Positions 1,144 through 41,737 of a stretch of 41,737 nucleotides of DNA are shown in pieces. The stretch's first letter is position 1. Every line of letters begins with the position of its first letter. The notes beneath the pieces are model-generated. The model searched no databases and had not been told where the DNA came from. It was given only the letters and a program-made list of their open reading frames with translations. Source of the stretch: Gammaproteobacteria bacterium (GTDB taxonomy: Bacteria; Pseudomonadota; Gammaproteobacteria; GCF-002020875). The translations under genes were made by a program, and so were the position numbers. The stretch spans positions 1 through 41,737 of the forward strand of contig DUYW01000008.1 of NCBI GenBank assembly GCA_013349825.1. Direction: 5' to 3'.

Positions 1144-2073
1144 ATGAGATATTCAAAGTGTATCAGCTGCGCAAGCTATGTAGGCTGGGTTGGACTGGGA
1201 ACAAACCTGGTCTTGATGATCCTTAAAGGATTTGTCGGTTTTGTTTCAGGCTCACAGGCTTTGGTTGCGGATGCAATGTATTCAGCCAAAGATGTCGTCA
1301 CCTCTCTGTTGGTAATAGTGGGGCTGAAGGTCTCGGGCAGGCCTCTGGACCGTGAGCACCCTTACGGTCATGGAAAGATTGAATTTATCTTGTCAATGAT
1401 CATCAGTGTGGTCTTTCTTGGAGTTACTGCACTGTTGCTGATTCACGCAATTCAGGTTTTAGTCAATGGGGATGTTCATCAAGCGCCACATATTATTGCG
1501 CTGTGGACAGCGATTATCTCAATTTTGGTCAATGTGATGATGTACTTCTATTCACGTTGTGTCTCGATTGAGGTCAACAGCCCTATGGTGCGGACCCTCT
1601 CTCGCCACCACCATGCGGATGCCACCTCATCGGTTGCGGTGGCCCTGGGTATTGTGGGTGCTCATTATCTGGATATGCCCTCAATTGATACCGCTGTTGC
1701 GCTGTTTGAGACGGCTCACCTGATGTATTTAGGGAGTGAAGTGTTCCGTGAAGCCTATAAGGGGTTGATGGACGGGAGTGCGCCGCCGGAGGTACAGGAA
1801 GAGATTCGCCAACAGGCAATGAAGGTTGCGGGAGTTGAAGAGGTTGAGGAGCTGAAGAGTCGACTGGTAGGGCAAGACCTCTGGGTCGATCTGGTGATTC
1901 GCGTTGATGAAGGGATTACTGTAGATGAGGCGAGTGATATCTCGGATGACGTTTCCGATCGATTGATCAGGGTGATTCCGCATATGGGGAGTGTGCACGT
2001 CAAATTTACTGCAGAGTCTGCAGAGCAAGACGGCTCTGACGACTTCGATGGTTATTCTCCGGTTACCCTGTAA
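1144..2073 (+). CDS. mamM: MamM, cation diffusion facilitator of the magnetosome membrane
   Basis: 309 residues, the usual MamM length. A six-helix CDF transport domain (about 10-210) is followed by a cytoplasmic CDF C-terminal domain (about 215-295). Metal-site motifs are visible: ADAMYSAKDV in helix 2 and the HHxxDA motif RHHHADATSS in helix 5. In Magnetospirillum MamM imports iron into the magnetosome vesicle and stabilises MamB by heterodimer formation. The N-terminal YSKCISCASYVGWVGLG segment resembles that of MamB at 6081 (KFEHCKGCRDEVVWWA), with a paired-cysteine motif in both. MamO follows after 16 bases and mamN, usually between them, is absent. Confidence 0.93.
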   Translation: MRYSKCISCASYVGWVGLGTNLVLMILKGFVGFVSGSQALVADAMYSAKDVVTSLLVIVGLKVSGRPLDREHPYGHGKIEFILSMIISVVFLGVTALLLIHAIQVLVNGDVHQAPHIIALWTAIISILVNVMMYFYSRCVSIEVNSPMVRTLSRHHHADATSSVAVALGIVGAHYLDMPSIDTAVALFETAHLMYLGSEVFREAYKGLMDGSAPPEVQEEIRQQAMKVAGVEEVEELKSRLVGQDLWVDLVIRVDEGITVDEASDISDDVSDRLIRVIPHMGSVHVKFTAESAEQDGSDDFDGYSPVTL

Positions 2074-2089
2074 TAGACCAAGGATGAGC

Positions 2090-3997
2090 ATGGACCATCA
2101 AGCAAGATCTGGGCAGGACGTTCAAGGAAAACGGCTCTCCCACAATAATATTATCTTTTGTAAAAAAGGTTGGAGATTACCCGCGTTGCTGTTGGCGGTA
2201 TTTAGTCTGCTGACCTTTCTCTGGGGTTTCTATATTCTGGAGAACTATTTGGAGGAGTTTGAGCTGGAAGAGTATGCCATCAATAGCCTTGAGCTAGGGA
2301 TGGGGAGTGTGACCAGTGGTGGGATGCTGAATGTGGCTGCACAACATTCAGGGGCGCAGCGGGTAGATGTGGTTGGTCAGCAGGTGAAGCCAGCCCTAGT
2401 GCATATTCAGATGGCAAAACAGCAGCAAGGTGTTGGGCCGTTGGCATCAGGTGTGTTGGTTCATCCGGATGGTTATGTGGTTACTGCATTACATCCACTG
2501 CTCAATATAGACAAGCTGCAAGTTGGGATTCCCACGCCACAAGGGCCTCGGCACTATAAGGCAAAACTGATTCAACAGGACCCGGCCCATAATTTGGCAC
2601 TGTTAAAACTGAAAACCAGAGACCGTTTTCTCTACCTTAAACTGGCGGATACCTCTCAAATTACGAGTGGTTACCCCGTCATTGCCATCGGCTTGGGGCA
2701 ACAAGGCATGACGCTGAGCAGCCAGGGAAGTGTGTTGCAACGCGGTGAAGTCATACAGAGTCGGTTGGGAGCAAGTATTACACGTCTGCTCAGGACGGAT
2801 GCAGTGTCTGTCAGTGGGCAGGTGGGTGGGGCGCTGGTCTCCTCCAATAATGAATTGGTAGGTATCAACCTGCCGGTTGTTACGGGGCAGGGGGTTGTGG
2901 ATGGCTACGCAGTCCCTTCACACGTAATTTACCATGCATTTCAAAAAGATGTGAAGTTCACAGTGGGTACAACACTGACCCCGCCTGCAGGGATGTCAAC
3001 ACAGACGCAGGTGGAAGATATGCGTTTTGTCGGGCCAGGCGGCAGTTTGCAGACAGTCAATGTTGCAGCTACGCAAGGTACAAATCCAGCAACAACCAGT
3101 GCTGCACCATCAGGCATGGCAAGTGACGTTGATCATGTGGTGGAGTTTCGCCTCGGTGGGCATACCATAGAAGCGATTATGGGGCTGGGACTGCTGGGAC
3201 TGTTCTCTGGCTTGGTTGGCGGCTTTATGACTATGGGTGGAGGTATTATTCTGGTTTCAGGGATGTTCCTCTTCTTTGGTTATGGTATGTTGCTGATTCG
3301 CCCAGTGGCTTTTGTGACGAACGTCTTTACCTATGGTGCTTCCTCTTGGAAAAATTGGCAGACTGGATTTATCCAGTGGGGGTTAGTCAAACAGCTGATT
3401 CCTTGGGCGTTAGTTGGCGCAGTTGTAGGTTATTTTATTGGTAGTGCAATGAATGATGAGTGGATTGGTTATCTGCTTGGGATTTTTGCCCTCATTATGG
3501 GGGGTAGAACGCTGCATGAAATCTTTAACCACCGTGAAGAGTATGAACTTGAGCTATCAGATGAGGGTGATGAGGGCGATGAAGATCAGGTCTCGGTAGT
3601 TGACCAACTGAAAGAGAATACAACGGTCCGGCATGGTTTGCTGGGTCTTCCAATGGGGTTGGTGAGTGGTCTGCTGGGTATCAGTGGTGGAGTAGTACAG
3701 GTGCCGTTATTACGTTATCTGGAGGATATCCGCTGGAAAAATGCGATAGCCAATAGCTCAATTATGGTTTTTTCGGCCTCTCTGGTTGCAGCAGTGGTCT
3801 CATTGATACATGGTACGGTAATCGGCGCTTATGACTTGATGCAGCCACTGGGGCTGGCGATGGTGTTGATTCCAACCTCATATCTGGGAGGAGTACTTGG
3901 GGCACGCTGGCTGAAGATGGTCTCTGTAGATGGTCTGAAATGGCTCTATGCAGGTCTGATGCTGGTCATTGGAATTAAGATGTTAATCTTGTCTTGA
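2090..3997 (+). CDS. mamO: MamO, degenerate trypsin-like protease fused to a TauE/SafE-type transporter domain
   Basis: About 635 residues, close to Magnetospirillum MamO. Order: membrane anchor (about 30-50), trypsin/HtrA-like domain (about 95-280), then an eight-helix TauE/SafE region (about 370-635). MamO is needed to nucleate magnetite and to activate MamE proteolysis; it is known as a pseudoprotease. Here the triad histidine is kept (TALHPL, His135), but the aspartate position reads Asn (AHNLALL, Asn168) and the GNSGGPL motif reads GQVGGAL with Val245 at the serine position, so it should be inactive as a protease. ATG 2090 is preferred because AAGG at 2079-2082 is well spaced; ATG 2084 is a near alternative. 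No PDZ domain and no CXXCH. Confidence 0.93.
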   Translation: MDHQARSGQDVQGKRLSHNNIIFCKKGWRLPALLLAVFSLLTFLWGFYILENYLEEFELEEYAINSLELGMGSVTSGGMLNVAAQHSGAQRVDVVGQQVKPALVHIQMAKQQQGVGPLASGVLVHPDGYVVTALHPLLNIDKLQVGIPTPQGPRHYKAKLIQQDPAHNLALLKLKTRDRFLYLKLADTSQITSGYPVIAIGLGQQGMTLSSQGSVLQRGEVIQSRLGASITRLLRTDAVSVSGQVGGALVSSNNELVGINLPVVTGQGVVDGYAVPSHVIYHAFQKDVKFTVGTTLTPPAGMSTQTQVEDMRFVGPGGSLQTVNVAATQGTNPATTSAAPSGMASDVDHVVEFRLGGHTIEAIMGLGLLGLFSGLVGGFMTMGGGIILVSGMFLFFGYGMLLIRPVAFVTNVFTYGASSWKNWQTGFIQWGLVKQLIPWALVGAVVGYFIGSAMNDEWIGYLLGIFALIMGGRTLHEIFNHREEYELELSDEGDEGDEDQVSVVDQLKENTTVRHGLLGLPMGLVSGLLGISGGVVQVPLLRYLEDIRWKNAIANSSIMVFSASLVAAVVSLIHGTVIGAYDLMQPLGLAMVLIPTSYLGGVLGARWLKMVSVDGLKWLYAGLMLVIGIKMLILS

Positions 3998-11555: not shown

Positions 11556-11900
11556 ATGCCAAGTATTATTGTTGGGTTGTTAGCTTTTGCCATGGGACTG
11601 TGGGGACTTTCCGTTTGGTGGTATTCAGTTGAAGAGCTGTTAAGAGGTATGGTGCCTCTGTTGTTGCTACTGTTTGGCGTGGTTGCATTAATGGCTGGAG
11701 TGAGCCGGGTTGTGGAAATCTCTAATGATGAGAAGAGTGATGAAGAGCTGATAGATCTTGATGATGAAGCAGTTAGTGATGAGCCGGCAGAAAAGCCAAT
11801 AGCTCCTGTTAAGCGAGCCGTTAAAAAGAAGCGTGTGGTTAATAAGCGTGTGGTTAAGAAGACCGCAGAAGCAGGCAAGCAGGAGAAGGAGAGCGAATGA
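11556..11900 (+). CDS. mamI: MamI with a lysine-rich C-terminal extension
   Basis: 114 residues. The first 50 hold two hydrophobic segments with the characteristic MamI pattern MPSIIVGLLAFAMGLWGLSV and ELLRGMVPLLLLLFG. MamI is one of the small proteins required to form the magnetosome membrane. Start ATG 11556 is chosen because GGAAGGA lies nine bases upstream and because MPSII is the family N-terminus; ATG 11538 lacks a ribosome site. MamI is usually about 70-77 residues; here an acidic stretch (SDEELIDLDDEAVSDE) and a basic tail (KRAVKKKRVVNKRVVKK) add about 50. The stop overlaps mamE by four bases. Confidence 0.9.
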   Translation: MPSIIVGLLAFAMGLWGLSVWWYSVEELLRGMVPLLLLLFGVVALMAGVSRVVEISNDEKSDEELIDLDDEAVSDEPAEKPIAPVKRAVKKKRVVNKRVVKKTAEAGKQEKESE

Positions 11901-14086
11901 TCAAGTCGCTACTAAATCCACAAATTACTTGTGGAAGAGATCTACGTAAATACCTCTTTGTAGTGGGCGGAGTAGCAGCCACTATTTTGGCTTCTGTTTA
12001 TACCTATGAATACCAATATTTACCTTATCAGGCAGAGAAACAGCTTCATACATCGGCACCAATCAACCAGTTGACTCCGGCAAATGCTGCGCAAGGCAAT
12101 ACGGTAGCAATGATGCAACCGGTGGCTGCACCGCCTGCACCACCTATTCGTGCCAATGCGCCAACGCCGGGCAACCACAAGCGTGATGGGCGGAATAAGG
12201 TTCCCTGTGCACAGTGCCACAAGATTGTTGGTGGGCAAGGGGTTGCATTTATGCAACCGATGGCGGGGAACAATGGCATGGGGTTGAATGTCAATGCCAA
12301 TGAGGATGCCCCACCCAGTTTTCGTGGGGTAGCGATGGCTCTGCGACCCAGTGTAGTAAACATTAACGCAACTACCACAACGGTTAATATGAATGCCGGA
12401 CAACAAGATGGACAGCTTCACTTTGCAAATCCATCTTCAGGTGTCTCAACAGAGAGTATTGGTTCGGGTATTGTGGCGAGTAGCAATGGGCTTATTTTAA
12501 CCAACTATCACGTTATCAAAGGTGCAACCGGTATTCATGTCACCGTATTTACCGGTATGGGGACCAAACGCCATGTTGCCTCAGTGGTCAAGGTAGATGA
12601 GACATTGGATCTTGCTTTGTTGCGTATTGAGCCGGATCAGCTGCTGACGGTCGCCCCGTTAGGGGATAGTGATCGGGTAGATATTGCACAGTCCGTATTG
12701 GCAATGGGAAGCCCCTTTGGTCTGGACCAGACGGTGAGCCGGGGTATTATTTCAGCGCGTCGTAAATCGATGGTGATAGACAATTTGACGCACGCAGAGT
12801 TGATACAGACCGATGCAGCTATCAATCAAGGCAATTCAGGTGGCCCCCTGATTAACCGCAATGGCATGGTGATTGGCGTTAATACAGCGATCTATACCCC
12901 TACGGGAGCATTCTCCGGTGTTGGTTTCGCGGTGCCAATCAATAAGGCAAAGACCTTCATGCAAGATGAACTCAATACAGGGCAACAAGGACAACCGGTG
13001 GCTTGGGGTGGTGGTATGAATGGTATGGGGTTGAATGTGGCTGCAGGACAGTCAGGGCCGCCGATTCGTGTCGGTGCTGCTGCACCCAATAGCCATAATG
13101 ATGGCCGTAACAAAATGGGCTGTAAAATGTGCCACCAGATTCGGGGCGGTAATGGTGCTGTAGCGGGGGGTAATGTTGCATTCAATGGAATGGCGATGAA
13201 TGTAGTTACTCCGGGAGTGCCTCCTGTGATTCTGGCGAAGGCAGCCCCTCCAGGTTCACACCAAGCAGATGGCCGTGCCTCAATGATCTGCAGTAGTTGT
13301 CATCAGATTCAGGGAACGGTTCAGGGTAACGTAGTGGCCTTGGCGACCCCGGGTGGAAACAGTGGCATTGGGCTACCTCAAATTCTAACCAACCCCATGA
13401 TGGGATTGAATGTTGCGGGTGGTGCAAAAAATGTGGTTGAAGGGGCTGAATTGGCACCTATTAACCCTCTGTTGGCAGATGAGCTGAACCTTCAGGTTAC
13501 CGATGGCGCATTTGTCTCCACTGTTTATCCCAATAGTGGTGCAGACCGGGCCGGGGTCATGGCTGGAGATATTATTTTTAAACTGGATGGTCGCTGGGTA
13601 TTGACGCCCAAGCAGTTGACACAACGTGTTGCGTCATCGCAGGTTGGAGACAGTTTGCGGCTGGGGATTTATCGTGGGGGAGAACGTATGAATCTCTACC
13701 TGGTGGTGACTGGACAGCAGATAGGCACAGTTGTAAATACTCCATCTAACTCCATGAGCAGTATGGTTGGCGCGGCTAATAATGGCGTAGGGCTGGTGAA
13801 TGAGATTCGCTGGCTGGGGATGGAGTTGAAACCGATTGGCCCGGACGTGGTTGCTAAAAAACCGATGTTACAAGGCAAGCAGGGCAGTCTGGTGAAGGAT
13901 GTTAAAATTGCAACCGTTGCCCAGAGTAGCGGTGTAATGAAGGGAGATGTAGTACTGAAAATTAATAGCCTCTCTGTTGCAACACCCGGACAGCTGGATA
14001 TGGCGGTTGCACAGGCCAACATGCGCAGTGGAATCTTGTTGCTTGTAGAGCGTAACGGGATGAAGCGGTATGTCACGCTCCAATAA
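11897..14086 (+). CDS. mamE: MamE, HtrA-like magnetosome protease with three magnetochrome motifs and two PDZ domains
   Basis: 729 residues. Order: membrane anchor (about 18-36), magnetochrome 1 (CAQCH 104-108), trypsin-like domain (about 143-355) with a full triad His205 (TNYHVI), Asp238 (TLDLALL) and Ser314 (GNSGGPL), magnetochrome 2 (CKMCH 409-413), magnetochrome 3 (CSSCH 465-469), PDZ 1 (about 515-615) and PDZ 2 (about 640-729). MamE sorts magnetosome proteins and, when proteolytically active, matures crystals; known substrates include MamO and MamP. Reference MamE has two CXXCH motifs, both after the protease domain. Each haem site here has a similar lead-in: PPIRANAPTPGNHKRDGRN, PPIRVGAAAPNSHNDGRN, and a weaker third. 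ATG 11897 overlaps the mamI stop. Confidence 0.95.
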   Translation: MIKSLLNPQITCGRDLRKYLFVVGGVAATILASVYTYEYQYLPYQAEKQLHTSAPINQLTPANAAQGNTVAMMQPVAAPPAPPIRANAPTPGNHKRDGRNKVPCAQCHKIVGGQGVAFMQPMAGNNGMGLNVNANEDAPPSFRGVAMALRPSVVNINATTTTVNMNAGQQDGQLHFANPSSGVSTESIGSGIVASSNGLILTNYHVIKGATGIHVTVFTGMGTKRHVASVVKVDETLDLALLRIEPDQLLTVAPLGDSDRVDIAQSVLAMGSPFGLDQTVSRGIISARRKSMVIDNLTHAELIQTDAAINQGNSGGPLINRNGMVIGVNTAIYTPTGAFSGVGFAVPINKAKTFMQDELNTGQQGQPVAWGGGMNGMGLNVAAGQSGPPIRVGAAAPNSHNDGRNKMGCKMCHQIRGGNGAVAGGNVAFNGMAMNVVTPGVPPVILAKAAPPGSHQADGRASMICSSCHQIQGTVQGNVVALATPGGNSGIGLPQILTNPMMGLNVAGGAKNVVEGAELAPINPLLADELNLQVTDGAFVSTVYPNSGADRAGVMAGDIIFKLDGRWVLTPKQLTQRVASSQVGDSLRLGIYRGGERMNLYLVVTGQQIGTVVNTPSNSMSSMVGAANNGVGLVNEIRWLGMELKPIGPDVVAKKPMLQGKQGSLVKDVKIATVAQSSGVMKGDVVLKINSLSVATPGQLDMAVAQANMRSGILLLVERNGMKRYVTLQ

Positions 14087-35862: not shown

Positions 35863-38046
35863 ATGAAGGTTAAAGACAGCTTTTGGGGGGCAATTGTTAT
35901 ATTGCTTTTGCTTGTCTGGCTTGTGGTTAGCTATACCCCAGAAACTGTTCAGCACTCCCAACTCTCACCGGGTACCTCTGCATTATTGGAGGCCTCCAAA
36001 AAAAGAGAGGGTGAAACTATCTGGGACTTACGTTTTGGGCACAATATTCCAGAGAGCAGTGCACTTCACAAAGCTGCGCTACGTTATGCCAAAGAGGTTG
36101 CTACAAAAACAGATGGCAAGGTTCGAATTACGGTCTTTCCTGCACAACAACTGGGTAATGATCATCAGATGGTTGAAATGGCACGTGCAGGTGAAATCGA
36201 TATCATTCTGACGCCAACCGCTAAACTCAGTGTTCCGGTACCTGCAATGCAGTATGCCGATCTCCCTTTCTACTTCTCATCACCGGATGAGCTCCATGCC
36301 ATGTTAGATGGTGAGCCGGGTAAAATGCTGCTTGAGCGGTTGAATGTCATTGATTTGGTCGGGGTAACCGTTTGGGATAATGGTTTTAAACATTTTACGG
36401 GTGATCGTCCATTGACGAAGCCTGCTGATTTTAGAGGACTTAATATTCGTACGATGAAAAGTCGAATCATTATGGAGCAGTTTAAATCGGTAGAGGCCAA
36501 CCCGATCCCTATCGATTTTCATGCAACACGCCAGGCACTTTCAGATGGTGTGGTGAATGGACAAGAGAACCCACTGACGGCTATTGTAAGTATGGGGTTC
36601 CATGAAGTGCAGTCTGACCTCACGATAAGCAACCATGCCTATTTGGGGTATGTATTCTCCTTAAGTAGCAAGTTACTCGACAGGATGCCAATGGATATCC
36701 AGAATATTCTGATTGAGACAGCACAAGAGCTGACTCCATGGGAGCGTCAGCTGACTCATCAGGGGGAAGAGCGACTGTTGCAAATTGTTCGTGAAGCGGG
36801 TGTCCATATTCACCATCTTGAGCCGGAGGCTCAACAGCAATTTTCCCGGTTAACGGCACATATCCCTTCCCGTTTCGAGGAGGTGGTTGGGTCAGATCTT
36901 ATCTCCAAGACTGAAGAGTTGAAGTTACTAAGAGCAATTCAGGCGGGAGAGGAGTTACCTGTTATCATTGGATTGGATACGGATCTCTCGATGGATACAC
37001 GTACTTCGGGGTTAGCCATCAAGCGAGGAGCTTCAATGGCTATTGCCGAGGTCAATGCCAATGGCGGTGTCTTGGGTAGAAAACTGGTGCTGCTCACCAG
37101 GGACCATAAAGGGATTCCCAGTAAAGGGGTCTCCAATATCAAAAGTTTTGTTGCAGACCCCAATGTGGTTGCCGTTCTGGGGGGGCAGCAGAGTCCTGTT
37201 ATTATTCCTGAACTGCCACTGCTCCAGCAGGCAGGATTACCGCTGCTGGCAACCTGGTCATCAGCAGACAGGGTCGTGGAAAATGGTTATGAAAATAATG
37301 TAGTGTTCAGAGTCTCTGCCAATGACCGCTTAACAGCCCCTTTCATCATTGACTATGTGCTGAAGCATTACAAGAGACCGGCGATTATCCATGAGAACTC
37401 CATCTGGGGAGCCGGTAACTTACACAACATGGAGAACGCTCTTCAAGAGCGAGAGAGTCGGTTTGTTCGGGTCGAGGAGATTAATCGTGGACAGCAGACC
37501 TTCTCGTCACTTCTTACCCGTATAAGACAAGCTAAAGCAGATGTGATTTTAATGGTTGTAAAGCCCCTGGAAGGCAGTCTGTTGATTAACGCAATGGCGG
37601 AACACGCTTCACCACTTCCTGTAGTCTCCCACTGGGGGGTTACCGGAGGTCACTTCTGGAAAGAGAATCGCGAAGCATTGAAAGTGGTCGATCTCAGTTT
37701 TTTCCAGACGGTGTTGCTGGATGAGTCAAACCGATTGCAGGCCAAGAAGCTGGTGCAGCGATTCCATCAACTCTATACGATTCCAGGAGAACATGACTAT
37801 ATTGATGCTCCAACCGGCATGGTACATGCTTATGATCTGGTTCATCTGCTTGCGTTGGCGATTGAGCAGGCAGGTACTACCTCACGCAGCGCAGTGCGCT
37901 CTGCGTTGGAAAATCTTCCCCTTTATGAGGGGGTAGCCAGAAAATATGCGCCTGCCTTTACAGTCGAGGATCATGATGCGCTGGATCAGGGAGATTACCA
38001 CATGGCTCGTTATAATGATCAAGGTTCGATTGAAGCGGTACGCTAA
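35863..38046 (+). CDS. fusion of a TRAP-type (DctP) and an amino-acid-type (Peripla_BP_6) periplasmic binding protein
   Basis: 727 residues. An N-terminal membrane anchor or signal (about 8-24), then a DctP-type TRAP solute-binding domain (about 54-345, with LPFYFSSPDELHAML and RGLNIRTMKS), and a second, unrelated Leu/Ile/Val-binding-type domain (about 363-715, with AIKRGASMAIAEVNANGGVL and PNVVAVLGGQQSP). There are no TRAP or ABC permease genes nearby. It is 30 bases ahead of a hybrid histidine kinase, so it probably senses one or two ligands and passes the signal to that kinase rather than transporting. The start ATG 35863 follows GGAGGA. Confidence 0.9.
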   Translation: MKVKDSFWGAIVILLLLVWLVVSYTPETVQHSQLSPGTSALLEASKKREGETIWDLRFGHNIPESSALHKAALRYAKEVATKTDGKVRITVFPAQQLGNDHQMVEMARAGEIDIILTPTAKLSVPVPAMQYADLPFYFSSPDELHAMLDGEPGKMLLERLNVIDLVGVTVWDNGFKHFTGDRPLTKPADFRGLNIRTMKSRIIMEQFKSVEANPIPIDFHATRQALSDGVVNGQENPLTAIVSMGFHEVQSDLTISNHAYLGYVFSLSSKLLDRMPMDIQNILIETAQELTPWERQLTHQGEERLLQIVREAGVHIHHLEPEAQQQFSRLTAHIPSRFEEVVGSDLISKTEELKLLRAIQAGEELPVIIGLDTDLSMDTRTSGLAIKRGASMAIAEVNANGGVLGRKLVLLTRDHKGIPSKGVSNIKSFVADPNVVAVLGGQQSPVIIPELPLLQQAGLPLLATWSSADRVVENGYENNVVFRVSANDRLTAPFIIDYVLKHYKRPAIIHENSIWGAGNLHNMENALQERESRFVRVEEINRGQQTFSSLLTRIRQAKADVILMVVKPLEGSLLINAMAEHASPLPVVSHWGVTGGHFWKENREALKVVDLSFFQTVLLDESNRLQAKKLVQRFHQLYTIPGEHDYIDAPTGMVHAYDLVHLLALAIEQAGTTSRSAVRSALENLPLYEGVARKYAPAFTVEDHDALDQGDYHMARYNDQGSIEAVR

Positions 38047-38076: not shown

Positions 38077-41000
38077 ATGAAAAATGTTATTTCAACCAAT
38101 AAGAGTCTGAAACGGAATCTGACGCGGCAGGTTGCCCTTTTTGTGGCGACAGTGATGGTGTTGGTGACACTGTTGATCTCGGTAATGCTGAATAATGCTC
38201 TGACCGTGCAGATGAAAGGGGCGTTGCAGAATATGGCGCGCTCCTCTGAACTGTTGCTGGAGCAGCGTATCTCCTACCTGGTAGAGAATATTGAGCGCTT
38301 GTCGGAGAACCATATTGTAGTGAATGGGCTGTTATCGGTAGAGAGCATTCAGGATGACCTGCTAAAACTGGTTGAGAACTTCTCTTCCGGGAGAGATGTA
38401 ACCTCATTTGTGTTGGTTGATTTCGATGGGCGGGTAGTGTTTCAAAATGGGCGGGATACAGAGGTCGACTACAATAGTTTTCGTGGACTGCGTACAGCAC
38501 TGGCACGGGGCAAACAGGCGCTGTTTGTAGATGCAGCGAGAACAAAGCTGGTTATTGTGGCCCCTGTGAGCTACTACAATACAACACAGGGTGCAGTAGT
38601 GACCGAGTTTGATCTCAATAAGCTGGCGATGTATGGACTGCCGAGTCGTGAAGATGCCTACTTCATGCTTTATCACCAGGGAGAGGAGATTGTGTCACTT
38701 AATCGGGACCTATCCACCCGGTACATCTCGGAGCGATTGGTTACCCAGCAGCGTGCGCTATTGATGCGTAGTGCAAAATTATCACTGGAGATTGGTGTAC
38801 CTGAGTCTATTCACCGAAAATCAGTATGGGATGTCACTTTCCGCTTCCTGTTGGTGGGCGCGTTGTTTATTCTGGCGGCTGTACTGGTTGCAACTCGAAT
38901 TGGAGAGGGTATTTCCCGTCCAATACTGGAACTCTATAACCGCGTTTTACGTGCCAGTAGGGCACAGGATGTGCGTTGTAGTCCCATTGGAACCGGTGAT
39001 GAGCTGGAGGTGCTGGCCTCTGCCTTTGATGATCGTACTGCTGAACTCAGAGCGGTTCAAAGTGAGCTGGAAGAGCGTGTACGCCACAGGACTTTTGAAC
39101 TGTTATCGGCCAAAGAGGATTTGGAACAGAGTCAATCGGCTCTGGAGAAGGCGCAAGAGTTGGCCCATCTAGGGAACTGGATTTGGGAGATTCCTAATTT
39201 TGCCTTTTCCTGGTCTGAAGAGATGTATCGAATCTTTGGCTTTAATCCACAGGATAAGGAGATTTGCCGAGAAAGTTTTCTCTCCTGTGTCGAGGAGGCA
39301 GAACAGCATGTGATCCGTGAGCAGTTTGAACAACTTCTTACAGATCCCGATGCAGTGTTAAAAATTGAGTACCGAATCTATCGTTCAGATGGTGAAATTC
39401 GTTATGTGCAGGAGCAGGCGGTTGTCCACTTTGTGCATGGCTCTCCAATTCGTCTCATCGGAACTGTATTGGATATCACCGATCGCAAGCTCTCTGAGAA
39501 CAAAATTCGCGAAGCCAGTGCACTGGCAGAATCAGCCAACCGTGCAAAGTCAGATTTTCTTGCCAATATGAGTCATGAAATTCGCACCCCGCTGAACGCC
39601 ATTATTGGTATGAATTATCTTGCGCTACAGACTCACCTCAGTCCAAAACAGCATAATTATGTGGAAAAAGCACACCGTTCAGCTGAGACGTTGCTTGGGA
39701 TTGTGAATGACATCCTCGATTTTTCGAAAATTGAGGCGGGTAAAATGGATCTTGAAGAGCGGGAATTTAATCTTCAGGAGTTATTGGATAACTTGACCAA
39801 CCTGATCGGCATGAAGGCAGAAGAGAAGGGGCTGGAGTTTCTGTTTGATGTCTCGCCCGAAGTACCAACGGTTTTTGTGGGGGATCGGCTACGCCTTGAA
39901 CAGGTCCTGATCAACTTAGGGTTTAATGCAGTTAAATTTACTGAAGCGGGGGAAGTGGTGCTCTCTGTACGGCCTGGAGTGGTGCAGGATGACAGTATGG
40001 TGGTCCATTTTTCAGTACAGGATTCCGGTATTGGAATGAGCGCAGAACAGCAGGGGCGGCTGTTCAAATTCTTCTCTCAGGCAGATAGCTCAATTACCCG
40101 AAAATTTGGGGGTACCGGCCTGGGGTTGGCGATCTCAAAAAGCCTGGTTGAGATGATGGGTGGTGATATCACGGTTGAGAGTGAAGCGGGTTATGGCAGT
40201 AACTTCAAGTTTTCCGTGTTATTACCCTTTCGTGAAGAGATTGATCTCACTGTGGACCATCTCAACCTAAATGAAGTGACCAATAAACGGCTGCTAGTGG
40301 TGGATGATAGTGCGATTGCGCGTGAGGTGTTGGGGAACCTCTTAAGCTCTATAGGGTTTGAGGTGAGTTTTGCAGAGGGGGGCGAGTCTGCAGTGTCGAT
40401 GGTTCAGCAGTCAGTTGAAGCGCAAAAAGGGTATCATATTGTGTTAATGGACTGGAGGATGCCTGTAATGAACGGTCTTGAAGCAATCTCAACTATTCGT
40501 GCCTCTATTGATATAGCCGATCAACCCAAAATGATGTTGGTGACAGCTCATGATGTCTCTGAAGTGGCTGAGGAGTGGGGGTATCATGGGCCGGTGTTAA
40601 CCAAGCCGGTAACTCCTTTAACACTGTTTGATGCAATTATGGGGCTGTTGGGGCACCCTGAAAAACGCCACATCCAGTCGGATAATAAGGATGGGGAGCA
40701 GCGCAGTGCAGCGAACAGACTCTCTGGTGCACGAATTTTGCTGGTGGAGGATAATCTGATTAATCAGGAGTTGGCGGTGGATCTGTTGTCTGATGCCGGG
40801 ATTATGGTGCGTGTTGCAGGAAATGGTCAGGAGGCACTTGAGCTACTGGATGTCGAGAGCTTTGATGGGGTATTGATGGACCTGCAAATGCCGGTGATGG
40901 ACGGTTTGACCGCAATCCGGAAAATTCGCAGCCAACCCAAATTCAGTAAACTGCCGGTACTTGCAATGACTGCAAATGTGATGACTGGTGACCTGGAACG

Positions 41001-41737
41001 TGTACTCGATGCGGGTATGAATGACCTGATTGGTAAACCCATCAACGTAATGGGGATGTTTGAAACCATGGCGAAATGGATTGTTTCGGTGAGCCATCAT
41101 GAGGAAGAGACTTCAGCGCTGGTCATTGATCCACAGGGAGTGGTTGATCCCGCTACGCTCCCAAATCTTGACGGTATTGATTCTGCAAAGGGACTGAAGA
41201 ATAGTCATGGTAAGATTAAAACATGGCGTAAATTATTACGGCTGTTTCATGACGATCAGAGAGATTTTGTTGAGCGTTTCCGTTACCACCAGAAACAGCA
41301 GATGATGAAGGATATGATGCGTTTGGCACACACCCTGAAAGGTGTATCAGGAACCATCGGAGCCTATCAACTGAGTGATGCAGCACGCCTGTTAGAGGAG
41401 GCTTGTGGAGAAAAGATGGGACAGGATGCTATTGAACAGCGACTATTGGGTGTACAGTTACTGTTGAGACCGGTGGTTATGGTCCTGCATCAGTTTTTGC
41501 AGGATGATTCGACGGTTGGTCAGGAGGTTGTTGAGTTTGATCATGAGCTATTTTCTGATCAGCTGAATGAACTCTATCTACTGCTGCTAGAGGATAATAC
41601 CGATGCGGTCGATTCTGTGGATAATCTGTTGTTGCTGGTAGGGGGAAGCGGCTCGATTGGTGAGGCATTGAATCAGATTGAAAAATGTACCAGCCGTTTT
41701 GATTTTGAGGGGGGGCTTGTGCTATTGGAGCAGTTGG
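38077..41737 (+). CDS. hybrid sensor histidine kinase, runs off the window
   Basis: At least 1220 residues, C-terminus missing. Order: membrane segment 1 (about 19-41), periplasmic sensor region (about 42-250), membrane segment 2 (about 252-275), HAMP (about 280-335), PAS/PAC (about 361-468), HisKA with His500 in SHEIRTPL, HATPase (about 600-715, with NAVKFTEAG, DSGIGM and GGTGLGLAI), receiver 1 (738-860, Asp about 791 in LMDWRMP), receiver 2 (888-1005, Asp about 934 in LMDLQMP), HPt (about 1065-1150, His in AHTLKGVSG). The LVVDDS and LVEDN receiver motifs are intact. It makes an operon with the dual binding protein upstream. ATG 38077 is the first good start. Confidence 0.95.
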   Translation, partial: MKNVISTNKSLKRNLTRQVALFVATVMVLVTLLISVMLNNALTVQMKGALQNMARSSELLLEQRISYLVENIERLSENHIVVNGLLSVESIQDDLLKLVENFSSGRDVTSFVLVDFDGRVVFQNGRDTEVDYNSFRGLRTALARGKQALFVDAARTKLVIVAPVSYYNTTQGAVVTEFDLNKLAMYGLPSREDAYFMLYHQGEEIVSLNRDLSTRYISERLVTQQRALLMRSAKLSLEIGVPESIHRKSVWDVTFRFLLVGALFILAAVLVATRIGEGISRPILELYNRVLRASRAQDVRCSPIGTGDELEVLASAFDDRTAELRAVQSELEERVRHRTFELLSAKEDLEQSQSALEKAQELAHLGNWIWEIPNFAFSWSEEMYRIFGFNPQDKEICRESFLSCVEEAEQHVIREQFEQLLTDPDAVLKIEYRIYRSDGEIRYVQEQAVVHFVHGSPIRLIGTVLDITDRKLSENKIREASALAESANRAKSDFLANMSHEIRTPLNAIIGMNYLALQTHLSPKQHNYVEKAHRSAETLLGIVNDILDFSKIEAGKMDLEEREFNLQELLDNLTNLIGMKAEEKGLEFLFDVSPEVPTVFVGDRLRLEQVLINLGFNAVKFTEAGEVVLSVRPGVVQDDSMVVHFSVQDSGIGMSAEQQGRLFKFFSQADSSITRKFGGTGLGLAISKSLVEMMGGDITVESEAGYGSNFKFSVLLPFREEIDLTVDHLNLNEVTNKRLLVVDDSAIAREVLGNLLSSIGFEVSFAEGGESAVSMVQQSVEAQKGYHIVLMDWRMPVMNGLEAISTIRASIDIADQPKMMLVTAHDVSEVAEEWGYHGPVLTKPVTPLTLFDAIMGLLGHPEKRHIQSDNKDGEQRSAANRLSGARILLVEDNLINQELAVDLLSDAGIMVRVAGNGQEALELLDVESFDGVLMDLQMPVMDGLTAIRKIRSQPKFSKLPVLAMTANVMTGDLERVLDAGMNDLIGKPINVMGMFETMAKWIVSVSHHEEETSALVIDPQGVVDPATLPNLDGIDSAKGLKNSHGKIKTWRKLLRLFHDDQRDFVERFRYHQKQQMMKDMMRLAHTLKGVSGTIGAYQLSDAARLLEEACGEKMGQDAIEQRLLGVQLLLRPVVMVLHQFLQDDSTVGQEVVEFDHELFSDQLNELYLLLLEDNTDAVDSVDNLLLLVGGSGSIGEALNQIEKCTSRFDFEGGLVLLEQL

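Follow-up and report, generated by a model that had tools for sequence, protein, structure and literature searches.

The window, a whole contig of 41,737 nucleotides, carries on its forward strand a gene (35863..38046) for a protein of 727 amino acids in which two unrelated types of solute-binding protein (SBP), a TRAP-type DctP domain and a LivJ-type Peripla_BP_6 domain, are fused in one chain. This DctP-LivJ fusion is a conserved family occurring in at least four phyla and is followed, with great regularity, by a membrane receptor carrying one particular kind of periplasmic sensor. We consider it highly probable that the fusion is not an uptake protein and acts as the extracytoplasmic co-receptor of the adjoining receptor, in the manner of LuxP and LuxQ, and we infer that it forms a physical complex with the sensor which is switched by ligand.

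The reading frame starts with ATG and has the sequence GGAGG just 5' of it. Pfam recognised DctP at residues 58-332 (E 4.7e-77) and Peripla_BP_6 at residues 367-718 (E 9.7e-37), both far above the cut-offs, and NCBIfam also called DctP, with the TRAP subfamily TIGR00787 above its own cut-off. An AlphaFold2 model built on an alignment of 70 sequences (pLDDT 93.8, pTM 0.90) showed an N-terminal membrane helix (residues 2-23, 35866..35931), a disordered stretch (residues 25-49), the DctP domain (residues 54-343, 36022..36891), a mostly helical linker (residues 344-366, 36892..36960, with a helix at 344-360) and the Peripla_BP_6 domain of the LivJ or type I class (residues 367-727, 36961..38043). 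The length of the linker in relatives is 22-33 residues. In a fold search the LivJ half matched 4q6w with Z 44.1 and the DctP half matched 4p47 with Z 38.1; among the 50 matches listed no structure spanned both halves. Because the fusion could be aligned over its full length in 70 sequences, it is neither a chance product nor an assembly artefact. The architecture given in the preliminary description, a single chain joining DctP and Peripla_BP_6 in front of a hybrid kinase whose sensor is periplasmic, is thus borne out. On inspection the N-terminus had no lipobox and no clear signal-peptidase site. Hydropathy indicated a transmembrane-like N-terminus in 72 of 76 members of the family, and a few had a lipobox-like sequence. 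Most members have a helix at the N-terminus in place of a cleavable signal, which suggests that the protein is tethered to the membrane.

The next gene begins at 38077, 30 bp after the fusion gene, and encodes a hybrid histidine kinase with phosphorelay domains. Since the window is the whole contig, this gene is cut at the contig end (38077..41737, 1220 residues; the orthologue from the same genus has 1237) and genes beyond it are unreadable here. According to Pfam and to our reading of the frame, the kinase comprises a periplasmic sensor region, a PAS domain, HisKA, HATPase, two receiver (REC) stretches and Hpt. The model and a fold search place the dCache-like sensor (about residues 45-245, 38209..38811; pLDDT 91.1) in the periplasm between two membrane helices. 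The kinase core of HisKA and HATPase_c lies at 39544..40218 (H-box SHEIRTPLNAIIG), the C-terminal receiver domain, which another receiver stretch precedes, at 40735..41049 and the Hpt phosphotransfer domain at 41233..41451, all on the forward strand. Upstream of the fusion we read dnaX-like, ybaB-like and recR-like genes from the sequence, while Pfam identified YdbH-like and DUF1318 genes; permease genes were absent from this side, the only one readable in the window. At the corresponding place of a same-genus locus (L024:10847-11599, minus strand, equivalent to L047:83-832) the gene 17 bp before the fusion encodes a Tll0287-like protein bearing a CxxCH haem motif; no such gene stands at this place in the window. 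Further away, at 1991-3997 and 11897-14086, the window encodes two magnetosome-type proteins, one MamO-like (trypsin-like and TauE domains) and one MamE-like (trypsin-like, magnetochrome (MCR) and PDZ domains), and the organism is probably magnetotactic.

A full-length fusion was found in 8 of 369 genomes drawn evenly from the class, and a genome of the same genus (G002) has one at 66% identity. Eighty relatives, nearly all of full length, came from a single scan of genome contigs. The 80 fusion rows of a tree comprised 49 Pseudomonadota (Beta- and Gammaproteobacteria and Magnetococcia), 13 Campylobacterota, 6 Thermodesulfobacteriota, 2 Nitrospinota, one Planctomycetota, one Myxococcota and 8 without phylum assignment. 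The single rows of Planctomycetota and Myxococcota may be binning errors. Magnetococcales account for 11 rows. Seven genomes of one genus (g354; L186-L192) possessed a second, divergent fusion-sensor pair beside the main one, and two of the partners in these divergent pairs had PAS domains by Pfam and no kinase or GGDEF domain that we could find. Membrane-bound channel-like and other single-chain LivJ fusions in the genomes G037 and G038 were considered as members of the family and proved to be different proteins. One of them (G037, L154:2-3364, minus strand) joins Peripla_BP_6, mechanosensitive-channel domains and a cyclic-nucleotide-binding domain in one chain, and another (G038, L155:1805-5065, plus strand) fuses Peripla_BP_6 directly to PAS, GGDEF and EAL. 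In a third (G037, L157:123-2489, minus strand) the stretch after Peripla_BP_6 weakly matches the membrane region of neurotransmitter-gated channels (E 6e-06, below the cut-off), and the protein could possibly be a ligand-gated channel with an SBP head.

The strongest regularity concerns the gene that follows the fusion. In 75 of the 75 loci where this gene could be read, it encoded a partner with the same N-terminal sensor (E at most 1.7e-61), starting between -89 and +108 bp from the end of the fusion gene and overlapping it by 4 bp in 24 loci. The pairing with a signalling partner proposed at the outset therefore holds, and it extends beyond kinases: 52 partners were classified as kinases and 20 as GGDEF proteins, with 3 unclassified by the same test. 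Among 45 partners examined with Pfam all had HisKA and HATPase, 42 a receiver and 32 Hpt, and of 23 other partners 20 had both GGDEF and EAL. Judged by a simple pattern, 16 of the 20 GGDEF proteins have an intact motif; the H-box is intact in 48 of the 52 kinases. A sensor profile made from the kinases alone recovered all 20 GGDEF partners, with a worst E value of 7.4e-90. On the fusion tree the GGDEF rows and an unclassified row clustered as one group of 21 (support 94), next to the group of kinase rows in which the fusion of the window falls. On the simplest reading, the output was exchanged once while the sensor stayed the same.

The association also holds when viewed from the other side. 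A search with the sensor only gave matches in 13 of 321 genomes of the class, and all 13 had a LivJ-type SBP immediately upstream (8 fusions and 5 LivJ-only proteins). Across the phylum there were 44 matches in 35 genomes; two were left out, L183, which starts at a contig end, and one other. Of the 42 sensors thus assessable, 40 had an SBP immediately upstream, usually the fusion and sometimes LivJ alone, and two (L170 and L176) had none. Since nearly all sensors follow an SBP and some of these SBPs are LivJ-only, LivJ is the constant partner and DctP an addition. In other words, the best explanation of these patterns of gene order is that the LivJ half was the ancestral partner of the sensor and that the DctP half came to be added to it. 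The LivJ-only versions, like the membrane tether and the GGDEF-EAL partners, had escaped notice in the preliminary description.

In a LivJ tree the transporter LivJs stood outside a group (support 98) that united the LivJ halves of the fusions with the kinase-linked LivJ proteins. On this tree the fusion was tested for multiple origins, and a single clade of fusion LivJ halves survived the AU test (p-AU 0.88), which means that it is compatible with the data and does not thereby prove a single origin. Pairwise distances correlated best between DctP and the sensor (r 0.85), followed by LivJ and the sensor (0.56) and by DctP and LivJ (0.49). However, the alignment of each domain rejected the trees of the other two with similar strength, and the distances between the trees were alike (RF 54-64 of 114), so that the trees do not tell which half touches the sensor. 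Inference of module swaps or contacts from the trees was accordingly rejected.

A possible mechanism may be outlined as follows. The fusion would hang in the periplasm from its N-terminal helix, with the LivJ-type half as the ancestral partner of the dCache-like sensor and the DctP half placed in front of LivJ in one branch of the family. Closing of one or both SBP domains on their ligands would alter the seating of the fusion on the sensor, and the changed seating would set the activity of the cytoplasmic output. In the window this output would be the phosphorelay of the hybrid kinase (HisKA-REC-REC-Hpt), which most likely ends in a REC-HD-GYP c-di-GMP phosphodiesterase encoded beyond the contig end; in the sister branch a GGDEF-EAL module would take the place of the kinase. 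A REC-HD-GYP gene lies directly downstream of the kinase in a same-genus locus (L047), in the close relatives L049, L050, L053 and L126, whose proteins are about 57-63% identical to that of L047, and also in L037. HD-GYP motifs occur near the system in 15 loci. Because several close relatives add such a regulator, an output towards c-di-GMP is likely. A search of the window's own genome for an orthologue gave no clear one, the best match having 40% identity over half the protein, and since the contig ends as well, the HD-GYP gene for the window is a prediction; that the kinase has an HD-GYP target in this genome is what we infer from its relatives.

What the two halves bind can be judged in part from residues known from other SBPs. 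In the DctP half R196 is conserved in 70 of 70 sequences, N236 in 69 and K121 in 68, and these residues align with R169, N209 and K94 of IctP/DctP. Because they are kept, the ligand of this half is likely to be a carboxylate. In a single pairwise alignment the IctP residues K41, Q171 and S91 fall on L68, M198 and P118 of the fusion; since they are not kept, a standard C4-dicarboxylate is not assured. For the LivJ half the best fold match was an SBP with bound 3-hydroxybenzoate, and other aromatic-acid binders as well as amino-acid binders were among the best matches, so that the amino acid originally suggested as second ligand is one candidate among others. An aromatic or amino acid would be a lead only. 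A LivJ-only relative in Azospirillum lipoferum adjoins the paa phenylacetate genes.

Two ligands are plausible because the carboxylate-binding arginine of the DctP half is kept in every sequence. It may be, then, that each SBP domain binds a ligand of its own and that the receptor answers to the combination, a reading to which we give a little less than even chances. Such a gate is favoured by the confident models of both domains and their conservation across several phyla, and by the retention of the TRAP arginine together with its asparagine, but the ligands of both halves are putative and the pocket region of LivJ is variable across relatives, so that the second ligand may differ between lineages. 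Alternatively only the LivJ half might bind the signal and touch the sensor, DctP having lost its use in signalling and serving as a spacer or scaffold. LivJ-only versions do pair with the same sensor, and the three IctP contacts for C4-dicarboxylates (K41, Q171 and S91) that are not kept by the pairwise alignment point the same way. We nevertheless regard this as unlikely, since the DctP half is better conserved than the LivJ half (mean column entropy 1.34 against 1.98 bits) and retains the ligand clamp formed by R196, N236 and K121, which would be unexpected in a mere spacer.

The signal might also be perceived by the receptor itself. The sensor of the kinase matched KinD (Z 18.1), DctB (Z 17.6) and LuxQ (Z 15.3), and PctA was also among its top fold matches; because its Pfam dCache_1 score (PF02743) was 27.3 bits, below the cut-off of 45, the term dCache-like refers to fold. 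Small ligands are commonly bound directly by dCache domains, such as those of DctB, KinD and PctA, and two residues of the sensor, R139 and Y167, vary hardly or not at all. A sensor that detects the ligand and is only modulated by the fusion nevertheless seems improbable in view of its nearly obligatory pairing with an SBP, and LuxQ, which has the same fold, is listed without a ligand of its own (PMC8694187). Another structure resembling the sensor is PDB 5ere (Dret_0059 of Desulfohalobium retbaense), a solved chain of 540 residues titled extracellular ligand binding receptor, the C-terminal part of which matches with Z 16.0 and which is listed as a cytosine-bound dCache (PMC8694187). If its N-terminal part were an SBP, it would provide an example of an SBP joined to such a sensor. 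A sequence match between kinase-linked LivJ proteins and 5ere was sought and not found.

Transport was addressed by searching the flanks of 94 loci (0.63 Mb upstream and 0.69 Mb downstream) with DctQ, DctM, LivH, LivM, LivG and LivF. No DctQ, DctM or LivH was present; a single locus (L091) had Liv-type matches, LivM/LivGF at 6-8 kb upstream, and other matches were generic ATPases. As positive controls, the same queries detected DctQM next to ordinary DctPs and LivHMGF next to the LivJs of transporters. As far as the flanks reach, then, the fusion locus lacks a gene set for a DctPQM TRAP or a Liv/HAAT ABC transporter, in agreement with the absence of neighbouring permeases noted in the preliminary description. 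That the fusion delivers substrate to a TRAP or ABC permease from another part of the genome, and stands before the kinase incidentally or for reasons of regulation, is very improbable: DctM-like genes are present elsewhere in 18 of 19 fusion genomes (a few matches being weak or partial) and would allow use in trans with a distant permease, but the membrane tether, the permease-free flanks, the strict linkage to one sensor family and the genome of Methylomonas methanica (G379, L111), which has the fusion and no DctM match, all speak against it.

Among known systems LuxP-LuxQ of Vibrio is the closest parallel, in that a type I SBP of the periplasm and a hybrid kinase of the membrane are separate proteins. 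LuxQ binds LuxP (1zhh, 2hj9) by a sensor whose fold is close to that of the window's kinase (1zhh_B, rmsd 3.3 over 181 residues). The likeness proposed is one of function and fold, and LuxP is a single-domain protein whereas the fusion has DctP in front and a membrane tether. TorT-TorS and XylFII-LytS are likewise SBP-activated kinase pairs, with other sensor domains and a single SBP domain, and complexes of SBPs with the sensors of LuxQ, TorS and LytS have been solved (PMC6321045). In Bordetella the carboxylate-loaded SBP BctC acts on the sensor of the kinase BctE (PMC9602780), but BctC belongs to the TctC family and is part of an uptake system in its own operon. DctP TRAP SBPs (4ovs, PA5167 DctP and PA0884 IctP) share the fold and about 30% identity with the DctP half, as well as the Arg, the Asn and one Lys of the carboxylate site; Lys41 and Gln171 of IctP, which serve the second carboxylate, are not kept in the fusion, which also lacks DctQM and has LivJ attached. 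A further comparison is the LivJ-only pair AZOLI_RS25445/RS25440 of A. lipoferum 4B beside the paa genes. Its SBP is 39% identical to the LivJ half and its kinase has the same sensor domain (E 1.5e-18), but the SBP lacks DctP and has a soluble-type N-terminus. A caution comes from Pseudomonas aeruginosa, in which no interaction was seen between the sensor kinases AgtS and AruS and three SBPs whose genes lie near theirs (PMC11113362), so that gene neighbourhood alone can mislead. The fusion goes beyond simple neighbourhood because its linkage to the sensor runs in both directions, spans phyla and persists where the output changes.

SBP-driven kinases are thus already known, and action of SBPs on diguanylate cyclases or phosphodiesterases is a reported mechanism (PMC9602780), but here a single shared sensor links one fusion family to kinases as well as to GGDEF-EAL proteins. 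In the open-licence literature we found no earlier report of DctP fused to Peripla_BP_6 and accompanied by a kinase, as had been supposed at the start. What seems undescribed within that literature is the union of a TRAP-type with a Liv-type SBP on a tethered chain that is paired near-obligately with one family of sensors, borne by kinases and GGDEF-EAL proteins alike. We tentatively propose, as a possibility that is on balance doubtful, a class of receptors in which two unrelated SBP folds on one tethered chain convey two ligands to a shared dCache-like sensor with exchangeable outputs. If true, this would represent a natural two-input control of c-di-GMP, by a phosphorelay to HD-GYP or by GGDEF-EAL. 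SBP-driven receptors are thought to be common, yet only about ten SBP-kinase cases have been characterised (PMC9602780). In this family dozens of independent natural pairs show near-obligate linkage, some hosts are in culture (Amphritea atlantica, Dechloromonas denitrificans, Zoogloea oleivorans and Parazoarcus communis), LivJ alone can be compared with DctP-LivJ, and one sensor bears two output types, which together make the integration of signals by SBPs directly testable.
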